Part shown: positions 16,086 to 30,984 of the stretch, one piece after another
Position numbering within the stretch: position 1 is the stretch's first letter
Layout: the number at the start of each line of letters is the position of its first letter
DNA from: Candidatus Terryibacteriota bacterium
GTDB taxonomy: Bacteria > Patescibacteriota > Minisyncoccia > UBA9983
Length of the DNA stretch: 33,295 nucleotides
Reading direction: 5' to 3'
NCBI GenBank assembly: GCA_016208535.1
Contig: JACQXW010000018.1
Location: forward strand, 1 to 33,295
Translations under genes and position numbers: made by a program
The notes under the pieces: generated by a model
Databases searched by the model: none
Told to the model about the DNA's origin: nothing
Seen by the model: the letters and a program-made list of their open reading frames with translations, nothing else

Positions 16086-16478
16086 ATGGATAATTTTTTG
16101 GAAAACGAACAAAAATACCGCGAGATAATAGGTGATATCATAGAAAACACCTCTCTTTGCATCAAGGTTTTTGATGAAAAAATGAATCTTATTTTTATCA
16201 ACAAGGGAGGCCGGGAGGAGCATTTTATCAAGGACGACGAGGATATACGCAAATGGAACTGGCTGAAAACGGTTAAGGAGCAATACCAGATGGAAGTCGT
16301 GGAAAAATTCCAGAGGGCGTTTTTAAGGGGCGAGAGCAGTGTGGCGGAATTTGAGCATACGCCAGAGGGTTCTAGCCATAAATGGTGTCTTGGTTTGCTC
16401 TCTCCGATTAAGGACAAAGAGGGCAAGGTCAAATCGGTTTTGTTTTTATCCATAGATATCAGTAATTCACCCCGTTAG
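16086..16478 (+). CDS. PAS-domain protein; stop codon lies inside a mobile element TIR
   Basis: PAS-like sequence nearly parallel to PAS domains of the downstream kinase (LCIKVFDEKMNLIFINKGGREEHFIKDDEDIRKW...); ends TCA CCC CGT TAG. Confidence 0.75.
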   Translation: MDNFLENEQKYREIIGDIIENTSLCIKVFDEKMNLIFINKGGREEHFIKDDEDIRKWNWLKTVKEQYQMEVVEKFQRAFLRGESSVAEFEHTPEGSSHKWCLGLLSPIKDKEGKVKSVLFLSIDISNSPR

Positions 16479-16750
16479 AGATTAAAGACTTATGATTTAT
16501 GTATATGTAATAAAAAGTCGAAAGACTAATAGATGGTATACTGGTAGCACAAATGATTTACGGAAACGCTTTAATCAGCACAATGAAGGCAAATCAACTT
16601 GGACAAAAAATCAGACTCCTTGGGATTTAATATATTACGAAGCTTGTTTAAACGAGCAAGATGCAAGGTCGAGAGAAAAATATTTAAAATCAGGTATGGG
16701 TAAACGTTATCTTAAAAATCGTTTAAAGCGTTTCCTGTCTCTAACGGGGT
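16469..16750 (+). mobile_element. GIY-YIG TIR element, copy 1 (282 bp)
   Basis: Perfect 12-bp terminal inverted repeats ACCCCGTTAGAG (16469-16480) / CTCTAACGGGGT (16739-16750) around a GIY-YIG ORF. Confidence 0.75.
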
Positions 16751-16752
16751 AA
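16492..16752 (+). CDS. GIY-YIG domain nuclease, 86 aa
   Basis: YVYVIKSRKTNRWYTGSTNDLRKRFNQHN...YYEACLNEQDARSREKYLKSG; C-terminal SLTG encoded by the right TIR. Confidence 0.9.
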   Translation: MIYVYVIKSRKTNRWYTGSTNDLRKRFNQHNEGKSTWTKNQTPWDLIYYEACLNEQDARSREKYLKSGMGKRYLKNRLKRFLSLTG

Positions 16753-19242
16753 ATGATCAGCTATATTAAAAATTTCATAAAAAACAACACCACCGGGATT
16801 CCTTTTGTTTTTAATTTTATTGCCGGAGCGGCAGTGTTATTTTTTTTCCTGTTTTTTGAATATATCAGGCATCTTGAGCATCTTCATTTTGAGAAAATAA
16901 TCTATGTTCTTGGGCTTTCGGCTGTCTGGTTTGTCGCCAGCGATGTCTTCAAAAAGAGGAGGAGATTTTCCCAATCCGTTCATTTTATTATTGACAGCGT
17001 ATTTTATCTTCTCACTTTCGGTTTTGTCGTCTATTACACCGGCGGCATGCACGGAGATTTTTCTCCCATTTTCTTTTTGGCTGCCATTAGCGCCGCCATT
17101 TTCGGCACCACTTTCCAGACACTTGTTTTTTTAATCATTCTCACCATTGAAAGTTATTTTGTTTGCATTTTGGCAACAGATAATTTGACCGCCTATCATC
17201 TTGGCGTCACCACTCTTTACGCGGTTTTTTATTTCATCATCGCCGGCCTGATAAGATATTTTTATATCAATGTAAAAAAGAGCAGGGAAGAATATGTGGA
17301 TTTGATTGAAAGCACTCCCTTATGCGTCAAGGTTTTTGACAGTCAAGGCAATCTGACTTTCCTGAACAAGGGCGGCCGAGAGGAGCATTTTATCAAGGAC
17401 AATGTTGATATCAGCAAATGGGATTGGCTGGAAACTGTAAAGGAAGAATATCGCCAGACCGCAAAAAAGGCCTTTGAAAAAGCCCTGCAGGGCGAAAGCG
17501 TTTTTGTGCAATTTGAACATACACCCGAGGGCTCAAGCCACAAATGGTGTTCGGGTATTATCTCGCCGATCAAGGACAAAGATGGAAAGGTCAAATCAAT
17601 TTTATTCTATTCAGCAGACATCACGGCCTTAAAAGAGACAGAAATGGAGATAAAGAAAAATGAGCAGATATTGCGCGTCACCCTTGATTCTACTCCTTTG
17701 TTCATCAAGTTCTTTGATAAAAACGGCAATCTGGTTTTTATGAACAAGGGCGCCAGAGAGGAGCATTTTTTGGAGGACAAAAGCGAAGAGGAAATTAAAA
17801 AATGGTCCTATTTTAATTCTGTTAAAAAAGAATATCGCCCGGCTGTGGAAAGGGCAATGAGCATGGCCTTAAAGGGAGAGATTGGCCATCTGGAAGTAGA
17901 GCATGTTCCTGGCGCGTCCAGAAACAAATGGTGTTTCAGCAGTTTTCTGCCGATTAAAAATGACAAGGGAGAAACTGAATATATGTTGCTTGTTTCTAGA
18001 AACATTGATGAGGAAAAGAAAATTGAAGAGGAGCGGAAGAAAAATCTGGAAAAGGCAGAGGAAACAAAAATCGCCCTTTTCAACATCTTGGAAGATGTCA
18101 AGGAATCAGAACTGAATTTAAAAGAGGAGCGGGACCGGTCGCAGGCGATCATCTCTTCAATGGGCGAAGGCCTTTTTGTGGTGGATAAAGATTTTAAGAT
18201 TGTTTTAATAAATTCTGCGGCTGAAAAAATTTTTGAGATGCCAAGGGAAGAAAGTATTGGCCAGGATTTAAGAAAGATTTGGTCGGTTTATAAGGCTGAG
18301 GAAAAAATTCCCGACGAAAAAAGGCCCATAATCCAGACTTTAAAAACCGGCAAAACAATCTTTGTTGGCGTTGAAGACAATTTTTATTACCACAAAATCA
18401 TCCTGCCTGGGAAAAAATTTCCCGTAAGTTTGATAACAGCGCCCTTGAAAGGAGACGGCATCACTGGCGTGGTGGTTGTTTTCAAGGACATTACCAAGGA
18501 AAAGGAATTAGATGAGGCAAAATCCAGTTTTATTTCCATTGCCTCGCACCAGTTGCGCACGCCTTTGACCTCTATCCGCTGGTATGCGGAAATGCTTGAT
18601 TCTGAAGATGTCGGCCCCTTAAATAAGGAGCAGAAAGATTTTATCGGCCGGGTTTATGACGGCGCCCTAAGATTGAACGAGGTCATCAATCTGCTTTTGG
18701 TTTTGGCAAGAATTGAAAGCGGCAAGGCGGAGATGGAGCCGAAAAAGACAGATATTGTTTCTTTTACCAAAGATATTTTGAAGGAATTGGAGCCCTTGAT
18801 AAAGCAGAAAAACACTCAGATTCGGCTGATTTTACCCGAGCCGCAGCTGTTGGAAATAAATTATGACGGCTCCATGCTCAGGCAGATTGTCACCAATTTA
18901 CTTTCCAATTCCATTCGCTATACTGATGATAAGGGCAGGATAGAGATAGAGATAAAGAAGACGCCGGGAAGCGTTGTTTATTCAGTTAAAGACGACGGCA
19001 TTGGTATTCCTCTTGGCAAGAGAGAGAAGATTTTCACCAAGTTTTTCCGGGCCGAGAATGCCGTGGCCAAGGTGCCGGATGGTTCGGGTCTGGGGCTTTC
19101 TCTGGTTAAGGCCTTGGTGGAGATGAATAAGGGAAGCGTGTGGTTTGAATCGCCTGCCATTTGGATTGATGAGGCGGGAAAAACCGAGAAAAAAGGGACA
19201 GCCTTTCATTTTACAATACCAATATCAGTAATTAGTAATTAG
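16753..19242 (+). CDS. Membrane-bound multi-PAS sensor histidine kinase
   Basis: N-terminal TM region, three PAS-like repeats, H-box SSFISIASHQLRTPLTSIRWYAEML, N-box LLSNSIRYT, G boxes DDGIGIP / GSGLGLSLVKALV. Confidence 0.93.
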   Translation: MISYIKNFIKNNTTGIPFVFNFIAGAAVLFFFLFFEYIRHLEHLHFEKIIYVLGLSAVWFVASDVFKKRRRFSQSVHFIIDSVFYLLTFGFVVYYTGGMHGDFSPIFFLAAISAAIFGTTFQTLVFLIILTIESYFVCILATDNLTAYHLGVTTLYAVFYFIIAGLIRYFYINVKKSREEYVDLIESTPLCVKVFDSQGNLTFLNKGGREEHFIKDNVDISKWDWLETVKEEYRQTAKKAFEKALQGESVFVQFEHTPEGSSHKWCSGIISPIKDKDGKVKSILFYSADITALKETEMEIKKNEQILRVTLDSTPLFIKFFDKNGNLVFMNKGAREEHFLEDKSEEEIKKWSYFNSVKKEYRPAVERAMSMALKGEIGHLEVEHVPGASRNKWCFSSFLPIKNDKGETEYMLLVSRNIDEEKKIEEERKKNLEKAEETKIALFNILEDVKESELNLKEERDRSQAIISSMGEGLFVVDKDFKIVLINSAAEKIFEMPREESIGQDLRKIWSVYKAEEKIPDEKRPIIQTLKTGKTIFVGVEDNFYYHKIILPGKKFPVSLITAPLKGDGITGVVVVFKDITKEKELDEAKSSFISIASHQLRTPLTSIRWYAEMLDSEDVGPLNKEQKDFIGRVYDGALRLNEVINLLLVLARIESGKAEMEPKKTDIVSFTKDILKELEPLIKQKNTQIRLILPEPQLLEINYDGSMLRQIVTNLLSNSIRYTDDKGRIEIEIKKTPGSVVYSVKDDGIGIPLGKREKIFTKFFRAENAVAKVPDGSGLGLSLVKALVEMNKGSVWFESPAIWIDEAGKTEKKGTAFHFTIPISVISN

Positions 19243-19263: not shown

Positions 19264-19629
19264 ATGAAGAAGAATGTTTTACTCATTGAAGATGACCGGG
19301 CCTTGAATGAAGCCATTAAAATGAAACTGGAAAAGGCGGGGTATGGCGTTGTTTCCGCTTTAACCGCAGAAGAGGCAATACCAGTTTTAGAGAACCAGCC
19401 GATTGATTTTGTCTGGCTGGATATTCTTTTGCCCGGCATGAATGGTTTGGAATTTTTAAGAGTGATTCGGCAAAAGCCGCTGCTCAAGGATAAAAAAGTG
19501 GCTGTGGTTTCGGTTTCCGGCAGTTATGGGACAAAAGAAGAGGCAAGAAAATGGGGAATAGTTGATTATATTGTCAAAAGCGAGTATAAATTAAACGACA
19601 TTGTTGATAGAATAATTTCCCAAATTTAA
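19264..19629 (+). CDS. Stand-alone response regulator receiver
   Basis: MKKNVLLIEDDRALNEAIKMKLEKAGYGVVSA...FVWLDILLPGMNGLEFLR; no output domain. Confidence 0.92.
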   Translation: MKKNVLLIEDDRALNEAIKMKLEKAGYGVVSALTAEEAIPVLENQPIDFVWLDILLPGMNGLEFLRVIRQKPLLKDKKVAVVSVSGSYGTKEEARKWGIVDYIVKSEYKLNDIVDRIISQI

Positions 19630-19910
19630 TCCCGTTAGAGACCCCAACCTTATGTTTTACGCATATGTGATAAGAAGCAAGAAAGACGGGAAATGGTATA
19701 CTGGAAGCACAAATAATCTACGGAAACGCTTTAATCAGCACAATAAAGGCAAATCAACATGGACAAAAGGAAGAGGTCCATTTGAAATTATTTATTATGA
19801 GGCATGTTTAAATGAAGAAGACACAAGGTCGAGAGAAAAATATTTAAAATCAGGCATGGGTAAGCGCTATATCAAAAACAGATTAAAGCGTTTCCTGTCT
19901 CTAACGGGAT
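19629..19910 (+). mobile_element. GIY-YIG TIR element, copy 2 (282 bp)
   Basis: Perfect 12-bp TIRs ATCCCGTTAGAG (19629-19640) / CTCTAACGGGAT (19899-19910); same length as copy 1. Confidence 0.75.
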
Positions 19911-19912
19911 AA
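19652..19912 (+). CDS. GIY-YIG domain nuclease, 86 aa
   Basis: YAYVIRSKKDGKWYTGSTNNLRKRFNQHN...YYEACLNEEDTRSREKYLKSG. Confidence 0.9.
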   Translation: MFYAYVIRSKKDGKWYTGSTNNLRKRFNQHNKGKSTWTKGRGPFEIIYYEACLNEEDTRSREKYLKSGMGKRYIKNRLKRFLSLTG

Positions 19913-22000: not shown

Positions 22001-23752
22001 ATGCATATTACTGAGGAAAAACTTAAGGATGTTTTGGAAAAATCAGGATTGGTGGAGGAAAAAATTTTTCAGGCCGCCAAGGAGGAGTCTTTGAGAACGA
22101 GCCAGTCCATCCCCAATATTTTAATCGGCCAGGGTATTATTTCTGAAGATTATCTGGCTGAGCTTTTAGAGCCGCATTTTGGCGTTAAGATTATTGACCT
22201 TAAAAAAATTACCATTCCTTCGGAAATTCTGGAACTAATTCCTGAATCCTATGCTAAGGCAAAGGGAGTTATTCTTTTTGAAATGCGTGAAGGACCGTCC
22301 TTCGCTAAATTAGCGAAGGACGGTCCTTTGTTAAATCTTGCCAAGGTGGCCATGCTTGACCCTTTGGATTATGACACCATTGAATTTCTGCGAGCGAAAT
22401 TAAACGTTTGGGTGGAACCATATCTTACCACCTCGCAGAATTTAAAATACGGCCTAAAGCAGTATAAAAAGAAAATCGGAGCTGAATTCAATAAAATCAT
22501 CAGCGAGAGTATTGAGAAATCTTTGTCCATTGTGGGTGAGCCTGACCTTGCCAAGATGGCTGAGTCTGTGCCCATTGTCACTATTTTGGACAGCATTATG
22601 GAGCATGCTGTTTCCTTAGGCAGCTCTGACATTCATTTTGAGCCCATGGCCAAAGAGGTGTTGGTTCGTTTCAGGATTGACGGCATTATGCACGAGATTT
22701 TGAGTTTGCCCAAGATGATTGCTCCGATTTTGGTGGCCAGGGTGAAGGTTTTGGCCAATCTTTTGATAGACGAGCACCGGATGCCTCAGGACGGCAGATT
22801 TAAGTTTGAGATTGAGGATGCCAGCGTGGATATCCGGGTGAATGTGATGCCTGTTTTTCACGGCGAAAAAGTGGAGATGAGAATTTTAAAAAGTTCGGCC
22901 AGGCCCTTGACCTTGGAGGAACTGGGGCTTAATCAAAAGGCAATTGACATTGTTTATGATGAAATTAAAAAGACTCACGGAATGATTTTGGTTACCGGTC
23001 CCACTGGCCATGGCAAGACCACCACGCTTTACGCCATTCTCCATATTTTAAATACCCCAAAGGTGAACATTACCACCATTGAGGATCCCATTGAATATGA
23101 GATTTCGCGCATTAATCAGACGCAAGTAAATTCCAAGGCAGGCATTACCTTTGCCAATGGTCTGAGAAGTTTGCTTCGCCAGAATCCTGACATCATTATG
23201 GTGGGTGAGATTCGCGATAATGAAACCGTGGAGATTGCGGTGCATTCTGCCCTCACCGGCCATCTGGTTCTTTCCTCCTTGCACACCAATGACGCACCCT
23301 CGGCCCTGCCCCGGCTTTTGGATATGGGCGCTCCCTCATTTTTGCTCGCCTCCACTATTAATATGGTTATTGCCCAGCGTTTGGTCAGAAGAATCTGTTC
23401 CTCATGCATTGAATCTTATTCAATGAGCCCGGAGATAAAAAGATTGATAATGGCTCAGCTGGCTTTGAATCCGGAAATAAAAATCAATGAAAAAAATCTG
23501 CCAAAAAGATTGTTTAGGGGCAAGGGATGCAAGGTTTGCGGCAATTCCGGGTTCAGGGGCCAGGTCGGAGTTTTTGAGGCCCTCAAAGTGAGCGACGCCA
23601 TCAGGGAACTTTTGTTGAAGCAGGCGCCGGTCGGAGAGATTAAGAAACAGGCCGTCAAAGAGGGAATGCAGACAATGTTTGAAGACGGCCTGCAAAAGGT
23701 CGAGAGGGGAATCACCACCATTGAAGAAGTGCTTCGCGTGATTAGAGAATAA
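22001..23752 (+). CDS. pilB: Type IV pilus/type II secretion assembly ATPase
   Basis: T2SSE N-domain, Walker A GPTGHGKTTTLYAIL, MVGEIRDNETVEIAVHSALTGHLVLSSLHTNDA; Cys-pair region CSSC...CKVCGNSGFRG. Confidence 0.93.
   Translation: MHITEEKLKDVLEKSGLVEEKIFQAAKEESLRTSQSIPNILIGQGIISEDYLAELLEPHFGVKIIDLKKITIPSEILELIPESYAKAKGVILFEMREGPSFAKLAKDGPLLNLAKVAMLDPLDYDTIEFLRAKLNVWVEPYLTTSQNLKYGLKQYKKKIGAEFNKIISESIEKSLSIVGEPDLAKMAESVPIVTILDSIMEHAVSLGSSDIHFEPMAKEVLVRFRIDGIMHEILSLPKMIAPILVARVKVLANLLIDEHRMPQDGRFKFEIEDASVDIRVNVMPVFHGEKVEMRILKSSARPLTLEELGLNQKAIDIVYDEIKKTHGMILVTGPTGHGKTTTLYAILHILNTPKVNITTIEDPIEYEISRINQTQVNSKAGITFANGLRSLLRQNPDIIMVGEIRDNETVEIAVHSALTGHLVLSSLHTNDAPSALPRLLDMGAPSFLLASTINMVIAQRLVRRICSSCIESYSMSPEIKRLIMAQLALNPEIKINEKNLPKRLFRGKGCKVCGNSGFRGQVGVFEALKVSDAIRELLLKQAPVGEIKKQAVKEGMQTMFEDGLQKVERGITTIEEVLRVIRE
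22290..22328. repeat. 39-bp near-perfect palindrome inserted in frame in pilB (family B)
   Basis: AAGGACCGTCCTTCGCTAA-A-TTAGCGAAGGACGGTCCTT: 19-bp perfect arms around one base. Confidence 0.9.
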
Positions 23753-28025: not shown

Positions 28026-30129
28026 CGTCTTCTTTATTATTATCATCAACAATATTTTTTATCAGCACCTCGCGCGGTTTGGCGCCTTCGCCCGGTCCCA
28101 CCACGCCGCGCTCCTCCAAAATATCCAACAGCCGCGCCGCCCGCGCGTAGCCAATGCTGAATCGCCTTTGAAAATACGAGGCCGAGGCCTTGCCGGTTTT
28201 AATGACCAGTTCCCGCGCCTCCTCATAAAGTTCGTCTTCTCTTTCGTTTTCTTCCTCAAAATTAACCCCGTTAGAAGTCCGATCTGCTAAAGGTAGATCG
28301 GCATCTGCCAAAGGCAGATTACTTCTAACGGGGTATTGTTCAGCCAGATGTTTAACCACTTTTTTAATTTCTTTTTCCGAGATATGAGGGCCCTGGAGCC
28401 TTCGCGGCTTTGCCGTGTCTCCCGCCAAATAAAGCATATCTCCGTTTCCCAAAAGTTTTTCCGCTCCAGCCATATCCAGGATGGTGCGGGAATCAACCTG
28501 GGAGGCGACCTGGAGAGCGACTCTGTTGGTGATGTTTGCCTTGATCAGGCCGGTGATAACTTCAACCGAAGGCCGCTGGGTGGAAACCATAAGATGGATA
28601 CCCACTGCCCGGGACATTTGCGCCAGGCGGACGATTGAGGCCTCCATTTCCCGGGGATAGGTTGCCATAAGGTCAGCCAGTTCATCAATGATAATTATTA
28701 GATAGGGCATTGAATTAAAGTCGCCATGTTTTTCGTGATAGGCGGCAATATCTCGCACTCCGGCCTTGAGCAGTTCTTCATATCTTCTTTCCATTTCCCT
28801 GCAGGCCCATTTTAAGGTGAGAATGGATTTTTTGGCGTCAGTGATAACCGGAGCGAGAAGATGCGGGATTTTATTGTAAACCGTGAGTTCCACACGCTTG
28901 GGGTCAATGAGAATGAAGCGCAGGGATTCCGGCGAATTATGATAAAGAAGACTGATGATGAAGGAATGGATGAGGATTGATTTGCCTGTGCCTGTGGCTC
29001 CGGCAATCAAAAGATGGGGCATTTTTGCCAAATTGGCAAAGACCGCCTTTCCGGTGACATCCTTGCCCATGGCAATCAAAAGATGTTTGCTTGATTTTTG
29101 AAAAGCTTCCTCTGAGAGAAGGCTGGCAAGCCCGATGAGGGTTTTAGTGGTGTTTGGTATTTCAATCCCCACCAGGGATTTTCCCGGAATGGGGGCCTCG
29201 ATTCTCAGAGGATAGGCGGCCAAGGCCAAGGAGAGATCGTTTTGCAAGGCAATAATGCGGGAAAGTTTTATGCCCTCAGCCGGCTTCAGGGTGTATTGGG
29301 TTACAGAGGGGCCGATATTGATTTCACTCATTTCCACCTCAATGCCGAAATTCTGAAGGGTTCTTTTGATGACATTGGCGTTTGCCTTAATGTCTCCGCT
29401 TGATGGTTTTCCTTTGTCGCTCTCCAGCAAATCCAGAGGTGGGGGAGTGAAGTCTTGCCTCGCCGCTGAGCCCGCCTCAACAACGGACTTGGGAGCGATT
29501 ATTTCTTTTATTTTTGCTGACAAAGGTATGACGCTTTTTGCCTTTGCCTCTGTTGTTTCTATCGGTGTTTCTACAGGTTCTTCTTTAATTTCTTTTTGTT
29601 TCTCTTTTTGTCCCTCTTCTTTTTCCTTCTTTTTTATTTTAATTGAGATCGGCATGTCAAACATTATCAAAAAGGAGATTACAAACAAGGCGGCCAAAAT
29701 TATCAAACTTACCCAAAAATCAAAAAGTTTCAGCAGGGGCCAGGAGACAAGGTATCCTAAATAACCGCATGTTTTTTCTCCAAAAATAATATCTGTTGCT
29801 CCCAAACTGCTGATTAAAAATAATGCGCTTCCTATCAAGGTATGGCTGAGCAGTTTTGGCCTAAAGGATGAGATTAGGGAAACAGTGGCGATAAAAAAAA
29901 CAACGGGCACCAGAAAAAATCCCGCGCCAAAAAGTTTTTCCAAAATTTTATAGGCCGAGTTGCCAATGACTCCGGCCTTGCCAAAGGCAGCTAAGGAAAA
30001 AAATAAACCAAGGACAAAGGAGATGATGGCAAAAATAGAACGCCTGGTTTGTTCTTGTAGCGCCTGATGCCATTTTTCAGCAGGTTCTTTTTTTGGGCGA
30101 TTAGCAGTTTTATTTTTTTTTTGAACCAT
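28006..30129 (-). CDS. ftsK: DNA translocase FtsK/SpoIIIE
   Basis: Four TM segments, HLLIAGATGTGKSILIHSFIISLLYHNSPESLRFILIDPKRVELTVYNKIPHLL, C-terminal gamma winged helix ASASYFQRRFSIGYARAARLLDILEERGVVGPGEGAKPREVL. Confidence 0.96.
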   Translation of the reverse strand: MVQKKNKTANRPKKEPAEKWHQALQEQTRRSIFAIISFVLGLFFSLAAFGKAGVIGNSAYKILEKLFGAGFFLVPVVFFIATVSLISSFRPKLLSHTLIGSALFLISSLGATDIIFGEKTCGYLGYLVSWPLLKLFDFWVSLIILAALFVISFLIMFDMPISIKIKKKEKEEGQKEKQKEIKEEPVETPIETTEAKAKSVIPLSAKIKEIIAPKSVVEAGSAARQDFTPPPLDLLESDKGKPSSGDIKANANVIKRTLQNFGIEVEMSEINIGPSVTQYTLKPAEGIKLSRIIALQNDLSLALAAYPLRIEAPIPGKSLVGIEIPNTTKTLIGLASLLSEEAFQKSSKHLLIAMGKDVTGKAVFANLAKMPHLLIAGATGTGKSILIHSFIISLLYHNSPESLRFILIDPKRVELTVYNKIPHLLAPVITDAKKSILTLKWACREMERRYEELLKAGVRDIAAYHEKHGDFNSMPYLIIIIDELADLMATYPREMEASIVRLAQMSRAVGIHLMVSTQRPSVEVITGLIKANITNRVALQVASQVDSRTILDMAGAEKLLGNGDMLYLAGDTAKPRRLQGPHISEKEIKKVVKHLAEQYPVRSNLPLADADLPLADRTSNGVNFEEENEREDELYEEARELVIKTGKASASYFQRRFSIGYARAARLLDILEERGVVGPGEGAKPREVLIKNIVDDNNKEDDDKISF
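28265..28334. repeat. 70-bp palindromic element inserted in frame in ftsK (family A, shares TIR with GIY-YIG elements)
   Basis: ACCCCGTTAGAAGT (28265-28278) / ACTTCTAACGGGGT (28321-28334), 14-bp perfect arms; two internal hairpins with AAA loops. Confidence 0.9.
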
Positions 30130-30295: not shown

Positions 30296-30984
30296 CTTAC
30301 GGACACCTAATGGACAAGGCCCAGAAATTGACTGGCGCTCTTTATCGGGTGACTGATCTTTTATCTGATAAAGAACCGCTTAAATGGATATTAAGAGAAA
30401 GAGCTGTAAATATTTATAATAATCTTTTAATTGTAAACCCCGTTAGAAGCAGGCAATCTTTGATTGCCGACGGATTTCAAAGAAATCCTGCTTCTAACGG
30501 GGTAAAAAATAATGACGCTATTCTTAATATTATATTTAACGATTTATCCTGTCTTACAAAGAACCTGGAATTAGTTGCCATTGGCACCTATATTTCCAAT
30601 CTAAATTTTGAAATCCTTAAAAAAGAATACATTAATTTAAAATCCCTTATAAATGGAGAAAATCTATCGGACATTTCTATCGGACATCTTATCGGACAAT
30701 CGAAATCGAATGGACACTCAAAAGTTCCAAGGACTACCCTTGGAGAGCATCCATATCCAAGGGTAGTCCTTGGAAACTTAGGAAACTTAGACAGGAAGCA
30801 AAAAATTGTTGAATTTTTGACAAACAATGGGCCTAAAACTATTAGCGAAATTATGCCTAATTTTAATGGGATTGGCGAAAAAAGCCTTCAAAGAGACTTG
30901 TCTGATTTAGTCCATTCTAGTAAGATAAAAGCAGAGGGAGAAAAACGCTGGCGAAGATATAGTTTGGAGTTATCCACAACCTGA
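30289..30984 (+). CDS. Putative winged-helix DNA-binding regulator carrying two in-frame palindrome insertions
   Basis: C-terminal wHTH-like RKQKIVEFLTNNGPKTISEIMPNFNGIGEKSLQRDLSDLVHSSKIKAEGEKRWRRYSL. Confidence 0.65.
   Translation: MDTYGHLMDKAQKLTGALYRVTDLLSDKEPLKWILRERAVNIYNNLLIVNPVRSRQSLIADGFQRNPASNGVKNNDAILNIIFNDLSCLTKNLELVAIGTYISNLNFEILKKEYINLKSLINGENLSDISIGHLIGQSKSNGHSKVPRTTLGEHPYPRVVLGNLGNLDRKQKIVEFLTNNGPKTISEIMPNFNGIGEKSLQRDLSDLVHSSKIKAEGEKRWRRYSLELSTT
30437..30503. repeat. 67-bp palindromic element inserted in frame (family A)
   Basis: ACCCCGTTAGAAGCAGG (30437-30453) / CCTGCTTCTAACGGGGT (30487-30503); internal hairpins GGCAATC-TTT-GATTGCC and GGATTTC-AAA-GAAATCC. Confidence 0.9.
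30725..30775. repeat. 51-bp palindromic element inserted in frame (family B)
   Basis: TTCCAAGGACTACCCTTGGA (30725-30744) / TCCAAGGGTAGTCCTTGGAA (30756-30775), 20-bp perfect arms, 11-nt loop. Confidence 0.9.

Follow-up and report, generated by a model that had tools for sequence, protein, structure and literature searches.

The window, by which we mean the whole 33,295-nucleotide stretch of DNA that was analysed, contains a 282-bp unit that is one copy of a family and no singleton; the family is widespread and was previously unnamed. Our reading, which we hold with high though not complete confidence, is that the family consists of an autonomous insertion element of about 280 bp encoding a GIY-YIG nuclease, together with non-autonomous double-hairpin partners that are moved in trans. 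Comparisons at the sequence level establish that units bounded by terminal inverted repeats (TIRs) occupy many loci, that a TNNA target is duplicated, that the corresponding sites can be found empty, and that copies with a broken nuclease have moved; they also establish that TIRs and protein diverge together and that short elements co-occur with their cognate nuclease. That the nuclease drives the movement is an inference and not a demonstration, and there are no activity data for any member. A preliminary description of this DNA had proposed a tiny mobile unit with no gene other than that of a GIY-YIG nuclease. The TIRs, the many loci, the 4-bp duplication, and the empty sites bear that proposal out. 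It did not anticipate the duplication, the targeting of start codons, the short partners, or the codivergence of ends and protein.

A nuclease gene enclosed by terminal inverted repeats

Unit 1 (positions 16469-16750) has the inverted repeats and the 86-aa GIY-YIG open reading frame (ORF) where they had been placed, with the ORF bracketed by ACCCCGTTAGAG (16469-16480) and CTCTAACGGGGT (16739-16750) (Table 1). The repeats had been described as perfect 12-bp TIRs. The inverted ends are real, but the outermost A/T is not TIR sequence and belongs to the 4-bp target duplication discussed below. Similarly, the last codons of the ORF (SLTG) do lie within the right TIR as claimed, but the stop codon is not split such that only its T is in the TIR; the entire TAA (16750-16752) is in the flanking TAAA. 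With TTCA on the left and TAAA on the right, unit 1 has no exact duplication. The absence of a transposase from the unit holds as well: the ORF fills the unit, PF01541 is the only domain detected in it, and it matches no known transposase or recombinase.

Table 1. Features of units 1 and 2 and of two short elements in the window
Feature	Positions	Strand	Remarks
Flanking tetranucleotide TTCA, left of unit 1	16466..16469	.	Place expected for target duplication; degenerate
Left TIR core CCCCGTTAGAG, unit 1	16470..16480	+	
GIY-YIG nuclease ORF, 86 aa, unit 1	16492..16752	+	PF01541 E=5e-18
Right TIR core CTCTAACGGGG, unit 1	16739..16749	-	
Flanking tetranucleotide TAAA, right of unit 1	16750..16753	.	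Contains stop codon
Left TIR core TCCCGTTAGAG, unit 2	19630..19640	+	
GIY-YIG ORF, 86 aa, unit 2 (19629-19910)	19652..19912	+	79% identity to unit 1
Right TIR core CTCTAACGGGA, unit 2	19899..19909	-	
70-bp short element, 14-bp stem with two hairpins	28265..28334	.	Unit-type TIR; fold z -10.2
67-bp short double-hairpin element	30437..30503	.	Exact duplication TAAA/TAAA; fold z -9.7

The encoded protein scores 65.6 bits against the Pfam GIY-YIG domain, for which the cut-off is 22.6. Residues Tyr5, Tyr16, Arg26, His30, and Glu62 are invariant among 29 homologues, and we take them to be the equivalents of the catalytic residues of I-TevI. An AlphaFold model reaches a pLDDT of 93.5, and the nearest solved structures are the UPF0213 protein 1zg2, Slx1, and I-TevI (1mk0, E=0.002). 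Domain score, the Tyr, Tyr, Arg, His, and Glu residues, and fold together place the protein in the GIY-YIG superfamily. Slx1 cleaves branched DNA, and we infer by analogy that the branched shape of the short elements could be recognizable by an Slx1-like nuclease.

Copies and short elements in the same genome

The TIR 12-mer is strongly overrepresented. With up to two mismatches it occurs nine times in the window versus 0.96 expected (0/100 shuffles), and with up to one mismatch it occurs 34 times in the 518-kb genome assembly, which is 97% complete, versus twice for the reversed control. These 34 matches pair up into units and short elements. Two 282-bp units are intact, and both are in the window; two 316-bp units lie elsewhere; the short palindromic elements number about 14, span 31-121 bp, and have ends like those of the units. 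Unit 2 has degenerate flanks, TTAA/TAAA. Because the ends are shared, we regard the short elements as the non-autonomous partners of the unit.

The short elements are predicted to fold into a stem with two hairpins, with z scores of -9 to -12 for copies of 67-70 bp. Short, non-coding, and dispersed, with paired arms and a shared TIR, they have the defining features of miniature inverted-repeat elements (MITEs) and of double-hairpin elements. A search of Rfam for known RNA elements returned no match, and that identity was rejected. The 28265-28334 element lies in frame in ftsK (minus strand), within the linker that joins the motor domain to the gamma domain, and the 30437-30503 element lies in frame within an ORF of unknown function. 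We dropped ftsK as an empty-site case, as the linker is variable among relatives and only the absence of the element could be demonstrated. Two further strong palindromes in the window, at 30725-30775 (20-bp arms, TTCCAAGGACTACCCTTGGA) and 22290-22328 (19-bp arms, AAGGACCGTCCTTCGCTAA), have unrelated ends.

The two 316-bp units, C3 and C28, are 91% identical to each other, and in both a single 33-bp hairpin is nested at the identical place inside the nuclease ORF. Their surroundings differ, and each copy is flanked by an exact duplication of its own, CTCA in one case and TTCA in the other. A copy with a broken nuclease has therefore moved, which suggests that the enzyme was supplied in trans.

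Target-site duplication and empty sites

Many insertions together define a TIR core of YCCCGTTAGAG and a 4-bp target duplication with the consensus TNNA. The duplication is exact in 51 of 93 units (mean 19.7 and maximum 29 upon permutation) and in 41 of 71 short elements (mean 6.0, maximum 14). Reconstructed targets have a T before and an A after the 2-bp direct repeat that was seen initially. An outer A/T that is part of the TIR, combined with a 2-bp duplication, was considered and rejected, since the outer bases vary together on both sides. An outer base other than A/T is identical to its counterpart on the opposite side; the duplication is therefore 4 bp long and the outer A/T is not TIR. 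Unusual targets, namely CTCA, TGAG, CTGG, TAAG, CTTA, and CAAA, are likewise duplicated exactly. None of the 16 B-type units has an exact 4-bp duplication. Asymmetric TTCA/TAAA flanks recur in place of an exact duplication in about ten A- and B-type units, unit 1 among them, and are unexplained. One genome, G018 (L052-L086), has about 40 copies (41 counted) of a ACCCCGTTAGAT palindrome inside a larger palindrome with GAGC/AAGG flanks. The inner ends have no duplication, and these nested palindromes, perhaps a compound element, were excluded from the duplication counts (all 41 copies).

Empty sites at orthologous loci, which the preliminary description had named as a check on mobility, were found twice at the secD-secF junction and once at another locus. 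Genome G204 has a unit between secD and secF, at the start of secF, and in G289, G293, and G146 secD is followed by secF without a unit. A unit of a different type occupies the same place at the secF start in G163, with the duplication TGAA, and G273, of the same genus as G163, has this site empty (TAAATATG...). G129 and G289 lack the insertion at the third site, L112. Insertion can also be read from a protein: rnpA, encoding the RNase P protein, has a 67-bp element in frame, and once its core and one duplication (69 bp) are removed, the protein is a standard one again and its score against Pfam rises from 47.8 to 53.7 bits.

Insertion at start codons

Most units in gene orientation are inserted in ATGAA. 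The stop codon of the nuclease is inside the right duplication in 77 of 92 units, and the right junction forms a start codon in 66 of the 92. In 59 of these 66, the rebuilt start opens an ORF that is 60 aa or longer, versus 2/132 control frames. Of 42 units that keep the host ATG on the left, 26 have it in frame with the nuclease (p=1.4e-4), giving MNPVRD..., and units without an internal ATG are in frame with the host ATG in eight of nine cases. We propose that the element would borrow the start codon of the host gene (MNPVRD..-GIY-YIG) and stop at the TGA inside the duplication, and that its right end would rebuild the ATG of the host gene. Because the start would be borrowed and the ATG restored, insertion into ATGAA may be tolerated, or selected. 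At one locus (L202, G069:C1:182400-184100), an F-type unit directly adjoins an A-type short element and the two share an ATGAA site; a rebuilt start codon can thus be reused as a target.

Distribution and end types

A search of GTDB species genomes found 519 relatives of the protein. TIRs are present at 78 of the 80 loci of the best 80 relatives, mostly 276-284 bp apart, which is the dispersed-TIR pattern of an insertion sequence or DNA transposon. Confinement of all homologues to one conserved locus without flanking repeats would have refuted a mobile unit; they occur at many unrelated loci instead. TIR-bearing relatives are found in many candidate-phyla lineages, and also in metagenome-assembled genomes labelled Omnitrophota, Planctomycetota, Desulfobacteraceae, Schekmanbacteria, WOR-3, and others; mis-binned contigs could explain some of these occurrences outside the candidate phyla. 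Within the class, relatives of >75% identity occur in other families, and identity to other genera of the unit's own family is at most about 54%, a pattern that would fit horizontal spread. No relatives were found in IMG/VR viral contigs or in phage and plasmid collections, and a phage or plasmid origin was rejected on that basis.

Units may cluster, as at L204 (G273:C27:6900-12600), where three lie in open frames of 268, 633, and 261 aa. Distant GIY-YIG genes without these TIRs adjoin tRNA genes at L033 (G000:C4:32668), L034 (G000:C8:2030), L252, L256, and L280. At L033 and L034, the GIY-YIG gene follows a partial tRNA copy that comprises the 5' part and precedes an intact tRNA-Leu or tRNA-Ser, an arrangement that looks as if insertion had occurred at the tRNA anticodon region.

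The family has at least five end types, and the ends diverge in step with the protein. Ends of other types belong to more distant homologues: B-type ends read ACCCTGTTAAATAA, D-type ends (CCCCGTAGTGAA) often have the duplication TATG, E-type ends (CCCRGTAAGACAAA or CCCGGTAGGACAAATT) are exemplified by L029 in the window's own genome, and F-type ends read TCCCGAACGAGAC. On the protein tree the TIR types require 16 changes versus 58 when shuffled, and 17 versus 58 without the C-terminal columns. Linkage by itself would produce part of this codivergence. More telling is the co-occurrence of short elements with the cognate nuclease type (A with A, p=7e-6; B with B, p=2e-7), compared with 0.78 and 0.23 for the cross-type pairings. 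A-type short elements are in genomes without an intact cognate unit in 37 of 55 cases, with units sought by exact pattern.

Discussion

How might such a small enzyme move DNA? In the mechanism that we infer, the nuclease would, in the manner of Slx1, recognize the TIRs, probably in the form of paired stems or branched DNA, and would cut at the base of the element and at TNNA with a 4-nt stagger; host repair would then join the ends and fill in the gaps. GIY-YIG enzymes hydrolyse DNA. To our knowledge none joins DNA strands or carries out transposition, and a host enzyme or some other enzyme must therefore also act.

That same gap in GIY-YIG chemistry leaves room for the GIY-YIG gene to be a passenger, with an unseen DDE or HUH transposase acting in trans on units and short elements that are all its MITEs. 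The short elements are classical MITEs in form, the genome is incomplete, and no genome-wide search for conventional transposases stands behind the rejection of this idea. We nevertheless think it improbable, though not negligible: none of the paired loci holds a longer TIR-bounded element with a different gene, the GIY-YIG gene is all that units in dozens of lineages encode, and TIR type tracks GIY-YIG type both in co-occurrence and on the tree. A homing endonuclease gene, which would cut the uninserted allele and be copied by homologous repair in the manner of free-standing GIY-YIG homing genes, is a much weaker candidate still. I-TevI is in the same nuclease superfamily and two different units have used the secF start, but copies are found at many unrelated sites that share nothing beyond TNNA, and spread is also seen for short non-coding elements with unit-type ends. 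Homing yields neither target duplications nor dispersed short copies, and it relies on a single recognition site of its own, without duplication, which is not what is seen here. These duplications and short copies refute homing as the main mode; at individual loci, secF for example, it may contribute to spread. Finally, the inverted repeats can pair and adjoin genes, as they would if they were simply regulatory hairpins or terminators flanking a nuclease gene that is resident in the host. We give this explanation almost no credence, because empty sites and target duplications of dispersed copies refute it, and the in-frame insertions in rnpA and ftsK and the patchy spread across phyla also speak against it.

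An autonomous nuclease unit with dependent short partners is thus our preferred reading, and we lean, with more reserve, toward a broader one: that these are a new class of transposon, TIR elements of about 280 bp that encode no mobility enzyme other than a GIY-YIG nuclease of <90 residues. In this view the nuclease would recognize and cut folded or branched ends, mobilize cognate double-hairpins in trans, and be built for start-codon insertion, and it would have diversified into types with their own ends across candidate phyla. Transposons are classed by their enzymes as DDE, HUH, tyrosine, serine, or reverse transcriptase. If the nuclease drives movement, this would be a kind of transposon not seen before; an element whose only enzyme is a hydrolytic GIY-YIG nuclease would extend this list by a class and would rank among the smallest autonomous elements. 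We found no published description of a GIY-YIG TIR element in the open-access literature, preprints and subscription papers being outside the scope of the search. Such a class would account for many small GIY-YIG genes of candidate-phyla genomes and for many of the palindromes scattered through them, would give double-hairpin-like elements the partner enzyme that their movement has lacked, and would be a neat case of a parasite repairing the start codon of its host gene. With at least five end types, each having its own predicted enzyme, the question is testable.

Several known systems share some of these features. The closest solved relatives by sequence and fold are UPF0213 (1zg2, 1ywl) and Slx1, and we know of no UPF0213 or Slx1 gene enclosed in inverted repeats. 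Rickettsia palindromic elements are short palindromes in frame in protein genes, as the short elements are here, and no cognate nuclease gene is known to us for them. I-TevI homing endonucleases and the GIY-YIG-encoding rRNA insertions of candidate phyla radiation (CPR) bacteria share the catalytic domain and, for the latter, the bacterial group, but they are in introns or rRNA insertions, and no TIRs, duplications, or partners are described there (PMC11270868). Double-hairpin elements and GC clusters of fungal mitochondria likewise form short palindromic clusters, with direct repeats where they are inserted, and an endonuclease encoded elsewhere was proposed to help them move (PMC4478555). 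In the fungal case the enzyme is unidentified and the copies contain no gene (PMC4478555), whereas in this family the short elements co-occur with a nuclease unit that shares their ends. Pairs of insertion sequences and MITEs resemble the family in having a short autonomous unit, TIRs, a target duplication, and non-autonomous derivatives with the same ends (PMC10969869). The family differs in having no DDE, HUH, tyrosine, or serine recombinase, only an 86-aa GIY-YIG gene in a unit of about 280 bp. REPIN/RAYT systems are similar in that small palindromic non-autonomous elements have ends matching the repeats that flank a single nuclease-like gene, with several cognate types and long coevolution (PMC3116915). 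RAYT is a Y1 HUH transposase, apparently unable to move itself and present in one copy per genome (PMC3116915). The family encodes no such transposase, and its GIY-YIG gene, unlike RAYT, is enclosed in a TIR-bounded unit of its own, is mobile, and generates a 4-bp duplication.
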